The notes beneath the pieces are model-generated. The model made no database searches. It was not told where the DNA came from and saw only the letters and a program-made list of their open reading frames with translations. This document shows, one piece after another, positions 34,698 through 38,734 of a stretch of 64,000 nt of DNA. The position numbers and the translations under genes are program-made. Positions within the stretch are counted from its first letter, which is position 1. Every line of letters starts with the position of its first letter. This stretch comes from a bacterium HR40 (GTDB lineage Bacteria > Pseudomonadota > Alphaproteobacteria > Geminicoccales > Geminicoccaceae), in the NCBI GenBank assembly GCA_002898275.1, contig BEIQ01000001.1, positions 1 to 64,000 of the forward strand, read 5' to 3'.

Positions 34698-35921
34698 TTG
34701 CCTGGGGCTGCGCCCGCACCGCTCCGGCTGGCACCGGGCTCCGTCCGCTTCCTGCTGCTGCTCGCCGGGCTCATGACGGTGGGTGCGGCGAGCACCGACA
34801 TCAACCTGCCGGCGGTCGCGACCATCGCCCGGAGCTTCGCCGCACCCTTGCCCGAGGCCCAGCTCACGGTGAGCGTTTTTTTCCTCGGCTTCGGCCTCGG
34901 CCAGCTGTTCGCCGGTCCGCTGTCCGACCGCTTCGGCAGGCGACCGGTCATTCTCGCCGGTCTCGCCCTCTATCTGCTCGCCACCATCGGCTGCATCCTC
35001 GCCACCAGCCTCGGCAGTCTGCTGGTCTGGCGGGCGGTCCAAGGGACGGTCGCGGCCTTCGCGCCGGTCCTGGCACGCGCGGTGGTGCGCGACCTGTTCG
35101 AGGGCCCGCGGATGGCGCGGGTTCTGTCCTTTGCCACCGCCGTCTTCATCCTCGCCCCCATTCTCGCCCCGTCGGTCGGCGCCCTGCTCCTCGAGATGGG
35201 AGGCTGGCGGTGGATCTTCGCCCTTCTCGCCGTCTATGGTGCGCTCTTGTGGCTGGCAGGCTGGCGCTGGCTGCCCGAAACCCTGAGGGCGCCCGACCCG
35301 ATGGCGCTCAGGCCGCGGCGCTTCGTGGAGGCCTGGCAGGCGGTCTTGGGCGATCCGCGCTCGTGCCGCTATGCCGCCGTATCGGTCGCGAACTTCGTCG
35401 TGCTGGTCGTCTATCTGACCAACAGTCCGGCCGTGTTCATGGACCAGTACGGCCTCAGTAGCCGCGCATTTGCCGGGGTGTTCGCCCTCGTCGCCCTCGC
35501 TTCGGCGGCGGGCAATCTGGTCAATGCCCGCCTCGTCCGGCGGATCCCGCTCGAGCGGCTGGTCGCATGGGCCTGCGCGGGTGGTTTCGCAGCTTCGGCG
35601 ATAGCGATCCCGATCGTGCTGGGCGATCCGGTCCGGCTGCCGCTTCTGATCGTCCTGCTCGCCCTCGGCTTCTTCTGTTTCAGTACGGTGATGGCGAATG
35701 CCACCGCCCTCGCCCTCCAACCGCACGGTGCGATGGCGGGAGCGGCGAGCTCGGTGATCGGTGTTTTGCAAACCGTCGTCCCGGCTGTGGTGGCGAGTCT
35801 CGTGGCGCTCCTGCCCATCGACCGCGCCGTCCTCACCGCCGGGGCGATGGCGGCGGCCTTCCTCGCAGCGGTAATGCTCGCGCGTCGGCCGCCCAGGGCA
35901 AGTCGATCCCACCCCTCTTGA
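34698..35921 (+). CDS. MFS multidrug exporter, Bcr/CflA type
   Basis: This major facilitator of about 407 residues has twelve predicted helices. Helix 1 carries MTVGAASTDINLPAVATIA and the loop between helices 2 and 3 is GPLSDRFGRRPVILAG, the MFS signature. The helix 4 motif RAVQGTVAAFAPVLARAVVRDLF and helix 5 APILAPSVGALLL are typical of Bcr/CflA drug resistance transporters. The start is uncertain. TTG codons at 34689 or 34698 keep the first helix, and the first ATG (34773) would cut it. No good ribosome binding site is seen. It probably depends on translation of the upstream gene. Confidence 0.85.
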   Translation: MPGAAPAPLRLAPGSVRFLLLLAGLMTVGAASTDINLPAVATIARSFAAPLPEAQLTVSVFFLGFGLGQLFAGPLSDRFGRRPVILAGLALYLLATIGCILATSLGSLLVWRAVQGTVAAFAPVLARAVVRDLFEGPRMARVLSFATAVFILAPILAPSVGALLLEMGGWRWIFALLAVYGALLWLAGWRWLPETLRAPDPMALRPRRFVEAWQAVLGDPRSCRYAAVSVANFVVLVVYLTNSPAVFMDQYGLSSRAFAGVFALVALASAAGNLVNARLVRRIPLERLVAWACAGGFAASAIAIPIVLGDPVRLPLLIVLLALGFFCFSTVMANATALALQPHGAMAGAASSVIGVLQTVVPAVVASLVALLPIDRAVLTAGAMAAAFLAAVMLARRPPRASRSHPS

Positions 35922-35988
35922 AAGTCGCGAGCGGCATACCTTCATCAAGGGTGCGGTCGCCGCCCGGGGCCGCAGCCGACGGCACGGA

Positions 35989-36007
35989 TATCGCTCGCGG
36001 GAGGATA
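35989..36007 (+). promoter_or_regulatory. ROSE-like RNA thermometer hairpin over the hsp20 ribosome binding site
   Basis: TATC (35989-35992) pairs with GATA (36004-36007) and CTC (35994-35996) with GAG (36001-36003). G35993 is left bulged and the loop is four bases (GCGG). The UCGCU strand fits the ROSE consensus UYGCU and is paired to AGGA of the ribosome binding site, exactly as in ROSE elements. The GTG start follows at 36011. The 89-base leader upstream can form other GC-rich stems. Heat would open the hairpin and allow translation. Confidence 0.7.
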
Positions 36008-36010
36008 ACT

Positions 36011-36508
36011 GTGACCGAGCTCGATCTGACACCGCTGCTGCGTTCGACCATCGGCTTCGACCATCTGTCGAAGCTTCTGGATACTGCCCTCAAATGGGAC
36101 GAGGGAGCATCGTATCCGCCGTATAACATCGAGAAACTCGGCGAGAACCGCTACCGGATCGTGATGGCGGTGGCGGGCTTCGGCCCCGAGGATCTCGAGG
36201 TGGTGGCGGAGCCCAATCTGGTCACGATCCGTGGCCGGCGCCGGGAGCCGGAAGGGGTGACCTACCTGCACCGCGGGATCGCCGCCCGCGCTTTCGAGCG
36301 CCGGTTCCAGCTCGCCGATTATGTGCGGGTGAGCGACGCGCGGCTCGAGAACGGGCTGCTTGTGATCGAGCTCGTGCGGGAGATCCCCGAAGCCCTGAAG
36401 CCGCGCCGGATCGAGATCCGGGGCGCGAGGGGGGAGCGGGTGATCGAACACCGTGGCGATCCCGAAGCGGGCTCGTCCGCGGTCGCGGGATCGTCGCGGG
36501 CGCCGTGA
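36011..36508 (+). CDS. small heat-shock protein Hsp20 (IbpA-like)
   Basis: This 165-residue class A small heat-shock chaperone begins VTELDLTPLLRSTIGFDHLSKLL, close to IbpA/HspA of proteobacteria. The alpha-crystallin domain covers about residues 35-135 (YPPYNIEKLGENRYRIVMAVAGF to ARLENGLLVIELVREIPEALKPRRIEI). It ends in a Ser/Ala-rich tail. It holds unfolding proteins in the cytoplasm. The GTG at 36011 is set by GGGAGGA, which lies inside the thermometer hairpin. A second Hsp20 follows 80 bases later. Confidence 0.92.
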   Translation: MTELDLTPLLRSTIGFDHLSKLLDTALKWDEGASYPPYNIEKLGENRYRIVMAVAGFGPEDLEVVAEPNLVTIRGRRREPEGVTYLHRGIAARAFERRFQLADYVRVSDARLENGLLVIELVREIPEALKPRRIEIRGARGERVIEHRGDPEAGSSAVAGSSRAP

Positions 36509-36588
36509 CCGGGCGGCCACCGGGACGGCACCGTGGACCGACAAGGATCGGGTAACGGATCGTCCAGTCGGAGGAAGGAGGTCGAGCC

Positions 36589-37086
36589 ATGTTCGGAGTG
36601 CGCAGCCTCGTTCCCTATACCGAGACTCTGGTTCCGGCCAACCGTGACATCTTCGAGCCGTTCTTGAGCTTCCGCCGCGAGATGGACCGGATCTTCGACG
36701 AGTTCTTCCGCAGCTCCGGTCTGTCGCTGACGGCGGGCGAGGCGTGGATGCCGGCACCGCAGCTCGATCTGGTCGAGACCGACGAGGAGTACCGGGTGAT
36801 CGTCGAACTGCCCGGCGTCGACCCTAGCGACGTGACGGTCGAGGTGCGCGGTGACCTGCTCGTCGTCCGCGGCGAGAAGAAGGCCGAGCAGGAGGAAAAA
36901 GCGGAGAACCGCTATGTGGTGGAGCGTCGCTTCGGGCGCTTCGAGCGGTGCATCCGCCTGCCGGCAGCGGTCGATCTCGAGAAGGCCGAAGCGACCTACG
37001 ACAAGGGCGTGCTGACGATCCGGCTGCCGAAGCCGGCAGAGGCGCGCAAGCCGGTTCGCAAGATCGAGATCAAGGCGGCGGCGTGA
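36589..37086 (+). CDS. small heat-shock protein Hsp20, second type
   Basis: This 165-residue Hsp20 of a different subclass is related to HspC/Hsp16-type proteins. The N-terminal part (FLSFRREMDRIFDEFFR) precedes an alpha-crystallin domain at about 50-155 with PQLDLVETDEEYRVIVELPGV and KGVLTIRLPKPAEARKPVRKIEI. It lacks the IbpA-like N-terminus of its neighbour. GGAGGAAGGAGG gives a strong, apparently open ribosome binding site. Pairs of unlike Hsp20 proteins commonly co-assemble. Its stop overlaps the next small ORF as GTGA. Confidence 0.93.
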   Translation: MFGVRSLVPYTETLVPANRDIFEPFLSFRREMDRIFDEFFRSSGLSLTAGEAWMPAPQLDLVETDEEYRVIVELPGVDPSDVTVEVRGDLLVVRGEKKAEQEEKAENRYVVERRFGRFERCIRLPAAVDLEKAEATYDKGVLTIRLPKPAEARKPVRKIEIKAAA

Positions 37087-37226
37087 GGCCGACCGTCGAT
37101 CTGCCGCGAGCCTGGGTCTGTGCCGCGCTCGCGGCAGCCCCCTGGTTGTTCTGGGCCTGTCCGCCCTGTTTCGTGTTGGCGCTGCTCTCGCCACCGGCGG
37201 GAAGGGCAGGGGAACCGGAGACGTAG
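37083..37226 (+). CDS. candidate 47-residue membrane protein with CPPC motif, coupled to hsp20
   Basis: A GTG start overlaps the hsp20 stop (GTGA), and the frame ends seven bases before an intrinsic terminator. The sequence has one hydrophobic helix, AWVCAALAAAPWLFWA, running into CPPCFVLALLS. A CPPC pair beside a membrane segment is unusual. Third codon positions are GC-rich as in true genes here. I recognise no family. It may be a small membrane or metal/redox protein of the heat-shock operon. Confidence 0.45.
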   Translation: MRPTVDLPRAWVCAALAAAPWLFWACPPCFVLALLSPPAGRAGEPET

Positions 37227-37232
37227 GGGCAC

Positions 37233-37269
37233 GGTGGAACGGACCCGCTCCGTTCCGCCGGATTTTTTT
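37233..37269 (+). terminator. intrinsic terminator of the hsp20 operon
   Basis: An 11-base stem (GGTGGAACGGA with TCCGTTCCGCC, one G-T pair) and loop CCCGC are followed by GGA and seven T. This is a textbook rho-independent terminator. It sits right after the CPPC ORF and before degQ, so it separates the heat-shock genes from the protease. Confidence 0.9.
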
Positions 37270-37351
37270 CTTGACCGCTCGGAGGGTCGGGGCATTGCCA
37301 GTCGCTGCGCCAGCTCGCTGCCTGGCGCGGCTCGCAGAAGGAGGTTGCGCG

Positions 37352-38734
37352 ATGCGGGGCCATCGATCGGTTCGCCTTCGGTTTTCGGGGTTGCTTTTGA
37401 TCGTCGCCCTGACCGCTGCCTTTCCCGCCCGCGCCCAGCTCGGTCTTTTCGATGAGCGGCGCGGGGTGCTGACCCTGGCACCGGTGCTCGAGAAGGCGCG
37501 GCGCGGCGTCGTCAACATCGCGGTGCGTTCGCACCGCCCCGGCATCACCAACCCGCTCTTCGCCGATCCTTTCTTCCGGCGGTTTTTCGGCCTTCCCGAC
37601 GAGCCGCCGCAGCGCGAGGTGTTGAGTGCCGGGTCCGGGGTCATCGTCGATGGGCGCCGCGGCCTCGTGCTCACCAACCATCATGTGGTCGAGAACGCCG
37701 ACGAGATCCGTGTCACCCTCGAGGACAGACGGAGCTTCACCGCGGAGCTCGTGGGCAGCGATCCGGCCACCGATATCGCCCTTCTCCGCATTCCCTCGGA
37801 CAATCTGACCGAAGTCCCGTTCGGCAACTCCGACGAACTGCAGGTCGGGGACGTCGTGATCGCCATCGGCAATCCCTTCGGCCTCGGTCAGACCGTGACC
37901 TCCGGGATCGTCAGCGCCCTCGGCAGAAGCGGGCTCGCGGCGCAGAAATACGAGGAGTTCATCCAGACCGACGCTCCCATCAACCCCGGCAATTCGGGTG
38001 GCGCGCTCATCGATACGCGCGGCCGGCTCGTCGGCATCAACACCGCCATCGTCTCTCCTGCCGGCGGCAATGTCGGCATCGGGTTCGCGGTCCCCGTCAA
38101 CATGGCGCGCGCGGTCATGGAGCAGCTCGTCCGCTACGGCGAGGTGCGGCGCGGCCGCATCGGTGTGGCGATCCAGGACCTCACTCCCGATCTCGCCGAG
38201 GCCATGGGAATCCCCGGGCGGCGCGGCGCGGTGGTGAGTCAGGTGGAACCGGGTTCGCCTGCGGAGCGGGCCGGTCTGCGCCCCGGTGACGTGGTCGTCG
38301 CCGTCGACGGCGAGGCCGTGCGCAGCTCTACCGAACTGCGCAACCGCATCGGGCTCGTCGAGCGCGGCAGCCGCATCGATCTCACCATCCTGCGCGATGG
38401 GCGCGAGCAACACCTGCGGGTGGAGGTCGCGGCGCCGGAGGAGGCGGGCATCGTGCCGGGCGATCGGGTCCCCCAGCTCGCCGGTGCGCGTTTTACCGAA
38501 ATCCCGGCAGGCCATCCGGCGCATGGGCGGATCGAGGGTGTGTTGGTCGCCGAGGTGGCGGAGGGCAGCCCGGCGTGGCTGTTCGGACTGAGGCCGGGCG
38601 ATATCGTCACCGCCGTAAACCGCCGCCCGGTTCGCTCGCTCGCCGAGTTCGAGCAGGTGCTCGCGGCACAGGGACGGGTCTTCGCCCTCAATGTCCAGCG
38701 CGGCAACGTGCAGCTCTTCCTGCTGTTGCGCTGA
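37352..38734 (+). CDS. degQ: periplasmic serine protease, DegP/DegQ (HtrA) family
   Basis: This 460-residue HtrA protease has a signal peptide cut near ARAQ. The catalytic triad is His111 (LTNHHVV), Asp141 (ATDIALLRI) and Ser215 (NPGNSGGAL). Two PDZ domains follow (about 265-355, [14 protein letters not shown]; and about 380-460, with [16 protein letters not shown]). The signature [16 protein letters not shown] is present. It degrades or refolds damaged envelope proteins. A strong AGAAGGAGG site precedes the ATG. Short loop LA and size favour DegQ over DegP. Confidence 0.94.

Follow-up and report, generated by a model that had tools for sequence, protein, structure and literature searches.

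A short two-hairpin ROSE-type RNA thermometer probably precedes the first of two hsp20 genes in an alphaproteobacterial genome

The leader of the first of two neighbouring hsp20 genes in bacterium HR40 is, with a probability of roughly 90%, a short two-hairpin RNA thermometer of the ROSE type, which would hide the Shine-Dalgarno (SD) sequence until the cell warms. The gene lies in the window analysed here, the first 64,000 nucleotides of contig BEIQ01000001.1 (assembly GCA_002898275.1), where a first-pass annotation had proposed a ROSE-like element at this place. Pairing in relatives, the rank of ROSE as top Rfam family and a clade model (E 6e-7) support that proposal; its function as a thermometer is argued by analogy with known elements. 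In ROSE elements that have been tested, a hairpin conceals the SD as long as the temperature is normal, and the imperfect pairing of the anti-SD lets this hairpin loosen when heated (PMC3669281, PMC9450479).

The regulated gene begins with GTG and encodes an IbpA-like small heat shock protein (Table 1). A second hsp20 follows after 80 nt, and this order is identical in relatives L067 and L068. Given the 80-nt spacing and the kept gene order, the two genes are probably carried on a single transcript. A DegP/HtrA-type protease gene stands after the pair in one of the two relatives checked: the order hsp20-hsp20-DegP/HtrA (36011-38734) is kept in L067, while L068 has both hsp20 genes with no protease adjoining. 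The closest relatives of the protein come from uncultured Alphaproteobacteria, probably Geminicoccaceae.

Table 1. Positions of the leader elements and hsp20 genes in the window
Feature	Position	Strand	Evidence
CTTGAA, RpoH-like -35 element (putative)	35917..35922	+	TCTTGA in 8/8 close leaders; CTTGA in 71/80 homologous hsp20 leaders
Hairpin I, GCGGUC-G-CC / GCCC / GG-GGCCGC, bulged G	35953..35973	+	RNAfold; Rfam alignment; pairing in 100% of the cells of 8 relatives; CG/UG/UA exchanges
Lower part of hairpin II, also pairing the GUG start codon (predicted)	35983..36013	+	RNAfold
Hairpin II core, UAUC-G-CUC / GCGG / GAG-GAUA, SD against anti-SD, G35993 bulged	35989..36007	+	Sequence; RNAfold; two-sided AU/GC exchange at 35990/36006; UYGCU in 78/80 leaders
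SD of first hsp20, GGAGGA	36000..36005	+	Sequence; 5 nt before GTG 36011
First hsp20, IbpA-like small heat shock protein, 165 aa, GTG start, regulated gene	36011..36508	+	Pfam PF00011, E 4.6e-17
Second hsp20, 165 aa, strong SD, without UYGCU or ROSE match	36589..37086	+	Pfam PF00011, E 1.7e-23; same gene order in L067, L068

The SD of the first hsp20 is built into a hairpin (hairpin II) whose core reads UAUC G CUC GCGG GAG GAUA on the plus strand. U35989, A35990, U35991 and C35992, followed by C35994, U35995 and C35996, face G36001, A36002, G36003, G36004, A36005, U36006 and A36007 across a loop of G35997, C35998, G35999 and G36000. All seven of the seven pairs are present, and G35993 is bulged opposite the SD. 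AGGA (36002-36005) thereby faces the anti-SD UCGCU (35991-35995), a form of the U(U/C)GCU that blocks the SD in the 3'-proximal hairpin of ROSE elements. RNAfold gives the 19-nt core -5.1 kcal/mol at 37 C and returns exactly the hairpin first annotated. The pairing of AGGA with UCGCU, the fit to UYGCU and the central bulged G are thus confirmed in sequence and fold, and the annotated stem (UAUC/GAUA, a C-G pair, a four-base loop, every base placed between 35989 and 36007) is right base for base. The annotation fell short in extent: it missed hairpin I, the -35-like site and the predicted pairing of the GUG.

Folded from the predicted leader start at 35950, the optimum consists of two hairpins, in a leader of 74% G+C. 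Hairpin II grows outward around the GUG, with 35983-35987 predicted to pair with 36009-36013; this start-codon pairing differs between relatives. Hairpin I lies upstream of it, reads GCGGUC-G-CC GCCC GGGGCCGC and, down to its bulged G, aligns with the first (5') hairpin in the ROSE consensus of Rfam. With its two hairpins (35953-36013) and its place ahead of a small heat shock gene (hsp20 at 36011), the leader falls within the range of ROSE elements, which have two to four hairpins and span 60 to more than 100 nt (PMC10474464).

About 30 nt upstream of hairpin I stands TCTTGA(A) (35916-35922). TCTTGA is kept at this place in 8/8 close leaders; in a wider set of 80 homologous hsp20 leaders, taken from alpha-, beta- and gammaproteobacteria, 71 carry CTTGA upstream. 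CTTGAA resembles the -35 element of heat-shock-sigma (RpoH) promoters, and the stop codon (35919-35921) of the preceding MFS-type transporter gene falls within it. In relative L067, too, the -35-like element apparently overlaps the upstream stop (2406-2408). A -10 region would probably lie at 35935-35945. From the -35-like site we infer a transcript start near 35950, and hence a predicted leader of about 61 nt (about 35950-36010), that is, a two-hairpin ROSE. When some 50 nt of additional upstream DNA is folded, a different SD-blocking structure is preferred, which does not outdo shuffles (z -0.43). We rejected this longer fold because the added DNA overlaps the end of the MFS gene and the conserved -35-like site. 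It is therefore probably outside the hsp20 transcript, and with a start near 35950 the alternative fold would not arise.

Such a hairpin could be an accident of high G+C, a strong SD paired with a chance complement and serving no regulation. Several counts fit this explanation. SD accessibility at the first hsp20 is only the 14th lowest among 79 SD-preceded ORF starts of the window, a rough set in which many ORFs are spurious, and 13 of the 79 are equally or more hidden. SD pairing is thus common in this high-G+C window, and we rejected it as evidence by itself. The bare motif TCGCT-N3-7-GAGGA was likewise rejected as proof, as it occurs 82 times in the genome and its reversed control 72 times, which amounts to background frequency. 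That the longer fold does not surpass shuffles points the same way. The first hsp20 is the only one of the 79 starts with UYGCU before AGGA. The accident is contradicted by conservation: the pairing, the bulge and the upstream hairpin are all retained across genera, the motif recurs in the homologues and a clade model singles out this leader. We regard an accident as very improbable, and it is this conservation, rather than the motif or SD pairing alone, that marks the thermometer-like leader as a real element.

Close relatives retain the pairing. In an eight-sequence alignment 97% of the cells are paired, versus 47-59% when the partners are slid by 1-3 columns. UYGCU precedes the SD in 78 of the 80 homologous hsp20 leaders (2.8% once the letters upstream are shuffled), and the equivalent of G35993 is an invariant G in 8 relatives. 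Exchanges on both sides of a stem affect one pair per hairpin, CG/UA in hairpin I and AU/GC in hairpin II at 35990/36006. The fold is thus conserved with exchanges, though few of them are independent; 187 of 500 shuffles reach the same count of two pairs, and the amount of covariation is modest. The core SD pairs are invariant across the eight sequences and hence uninformative either way.

A covariance model was made for the clade from seven aligned leaders of two neighbouring genera, with the window left out. Its structure was drawn partly from the fold of the window, so the model is blind in sequence and not wholly in structure. In the 2.9-Mb genome its only significant site is the hsp20 leader (49.3 bits, E 6.4e-7), the next match reaching 19.2 bits. 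Run unfiltered within the window, it gives the leader E 1.5e-8 and the next site 0.18. A match on the opposite strand (35935-35987, 7.6 bits) was dismissed as background. Over 385 genomes of the class, three further matches have E < 0.01, and all lie immediately before hsp20 genes.

At the hsp20 leader no Rfam family scores above its cutoff; the sole above-cutoff match in the window is a tRNA. With a lowered threshold, ROSE (RF00435) ranks first among 4227 families on the 251-nt region that holds the leader, matching over its full length (1-94) with 24.0 bits (E 0.095) against a curated cutoff of 45 bits. ROSE_2, the gammaproteobacterial ROSE family of Rfam, has no match in the leader region with E up to 10. 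The covariance search suggested in the first-pass annotation favours its proposal: ROSE ranks first of all families at the site, although it stays below its curated cutoff.

That cutoff is a threshold of the model and no structural definition. Over 97 relatives, RF00435 gives 38 matches at E <= 1. Hsp20 genes adjoin 34 of them, and for 32 of these 34 the protein match starts no more than 10 nt away. Only two of the 38 pass the curated cutoff, and 32 of the 36 that do not pass it adjoin hsp20 genes. This search used stricter filters and misses the window's own 24-bit site, which the single-genome search recovers. Most alphaproteobacterial ROSE-like leaders (L040-L064, for example) score 20-40 bits, under the cutoff and exactly at hsp20 starts. 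The Rfam ROSE model or its cutoff thus misses most true-looking members. Across the whole genome, the two best RF00435 matches are the leader site and one of 25.4 bits. The latter and another of 18.2 bits were rejected, as both lie inside apparent coding regions, away from any start.

As a thermometer the leader would work as follows. A heat-shock-sigma-like promoter would drive the hsp20 operon. At normal temperature, hairpin II would pair the SD, and probably the GUG too, with UCGCU and so keep ribosomes off. The bulged G35993 would leave an imperfect stem that loosens on heating, allowing translation to begin. Hairpin I would stay folded, probably as a folding aid.

ViennaRNA predicts almost no opening of the SD in the full leader up to 60 C. 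We set these melting curves aside as uninformative for ROSE, whose melting hinges on non-canonical pairs, a weak point of the energy model. The SD hairpin is predicted at -13.3 kcal/mol, versus -4 to -9 in most relatives, and one sister sequence reaches -13.5. The small predicted opening could mean that the energy model misses non-canonical melting, that the host lives warm or that chaperone feedback is added. A partial 16S rRNA (L159; G000:C7:89-927) has 63% G+C, a weak hint that the host may be warm-living. Taken at face value, so stable a stem, with the start codon predicted to be paired as well, would suit a ROSE descendant that is now locked, one that physiological temperatures cannot melt and that only lowers translation. 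Yet the clade has kept the destabilising bulged G, the host may grow hot, and the energies come from a model that is poor on the very pairs concerned. We therefore think a locked element improbable, if less so than an accident of base composition.

The stability of the stem would also suit a layer of control beyond simple melting. The leader could mainly be the target of chaperone feedback, in which free Hsp20 would occupy the 5' UTR and keep translation off until drawn away by unfolded proteins; the hairpins would then serve protein binding in addition to temperature sensing, or even more than it. In E. coli, IbpA acts through its 5' UTR to repress its own synthesis and needs R93, R97 and K98 for this, and the same has been suggested for alphaproteobacterial IbpAs (PMC10474464). 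At the place of these residues, judged by eye and by spacing, the first Hsp20 has R-AFE-R-R, with the IbpA spacing; the second, also by eye, has G-RFE-R-C. The two patterns may mirror the split between IbpA and IbpB in self-repression. Feedback would complement rather than replace a thermometer, since single leaders are described in the literature as serving both ends, and as the main role of this leader we hold it possible but on balance unlikely.

The first-pass annotation had further described the SD of the second hsp20 (36589) as exposed, so that the two genes would differ in heat control. Its unpaired probability is 0.60-0.63 when 15-18 nt of coding sequence are folded with it and 0.20 with 30-40 nt; the description holds for the short fold, fails for the long one and is not robust. 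Neither UYGCU nor a ROSE match was found in the leader of this gene. A difference in translational heat control within the pair is plausible but unproven. Another hsp20 of the genome (L004; G000:C5, 183137-183442, minus strand) combines an upstream CTCTTGA with a strong SD that lacks a preceding UYGCU.

A more specific form of the thermometer reading can be offered tentatively, and we would not favour it over its negation. The window's genus and its closest relatives may share a lineage-specific short ROSE subtype, in which a stem of unusual stability, tuned to a warm host, locks both the SD and the start codon, possibly combined with chaperone self-repression, and with the second hsp20 of the operon left unlocked.

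Among known systems, FourU thermometers likewise block the SD with a hairpin that heat opens. Unlike them, this leader lacks a run of four U; UCGCU with a bulged G faces the SD, and we rejected assignment to that class. With ROSE_2 the leader shares the principle. The RF00435 family, of the Bradyrhizobium hspA type, is nearer: its first and last hairpins align with those of the leader over the whole model, both bulged Gs included, and it occupies the same place before hsp20. The leader differs from it in length (63 nt versus 94), in lacking the middle part and in its sub-cutoff match.

The closest counterpart is the ROSE element of Pseudomonas ibpA, a two-hairpin form of 61-62 nt that has been shown to be functional, with hairpin II sensing temperature and hairpin I unchanged (PMC3669281). 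The present leader has about the same length, a G+C-rich hairpin I and a hairpin II in which U(U/C)GCU would block the SD, and it too precedes a small heat shock gene. Transcription that depends on the heat-shock sigma factor, a further trait of the Pseudomonas element, is presumed here from the promoter-like site. It differs in that its host is alphaproteobacterial (probably Geminicoccaceae) and that the GUG is predicted to be paired in the stem, whereas the Pseudomonas AUG is unpaired. Hairpin II is also more stable than in typical relatives, and the element is known from sequence and prediction, unlike its Pseudomonas counterpart. A search of the literature turned up no thermometer work specific to the Geminicoccaceae. 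The biology is otherwise that of an ordinary heat-shock response, with the ROSE type already known and its short form known from Pseudomonas; what the leader adds is a well-supported short ROSE thermometer candidate in a poorly studied alphaproteobacterial family.
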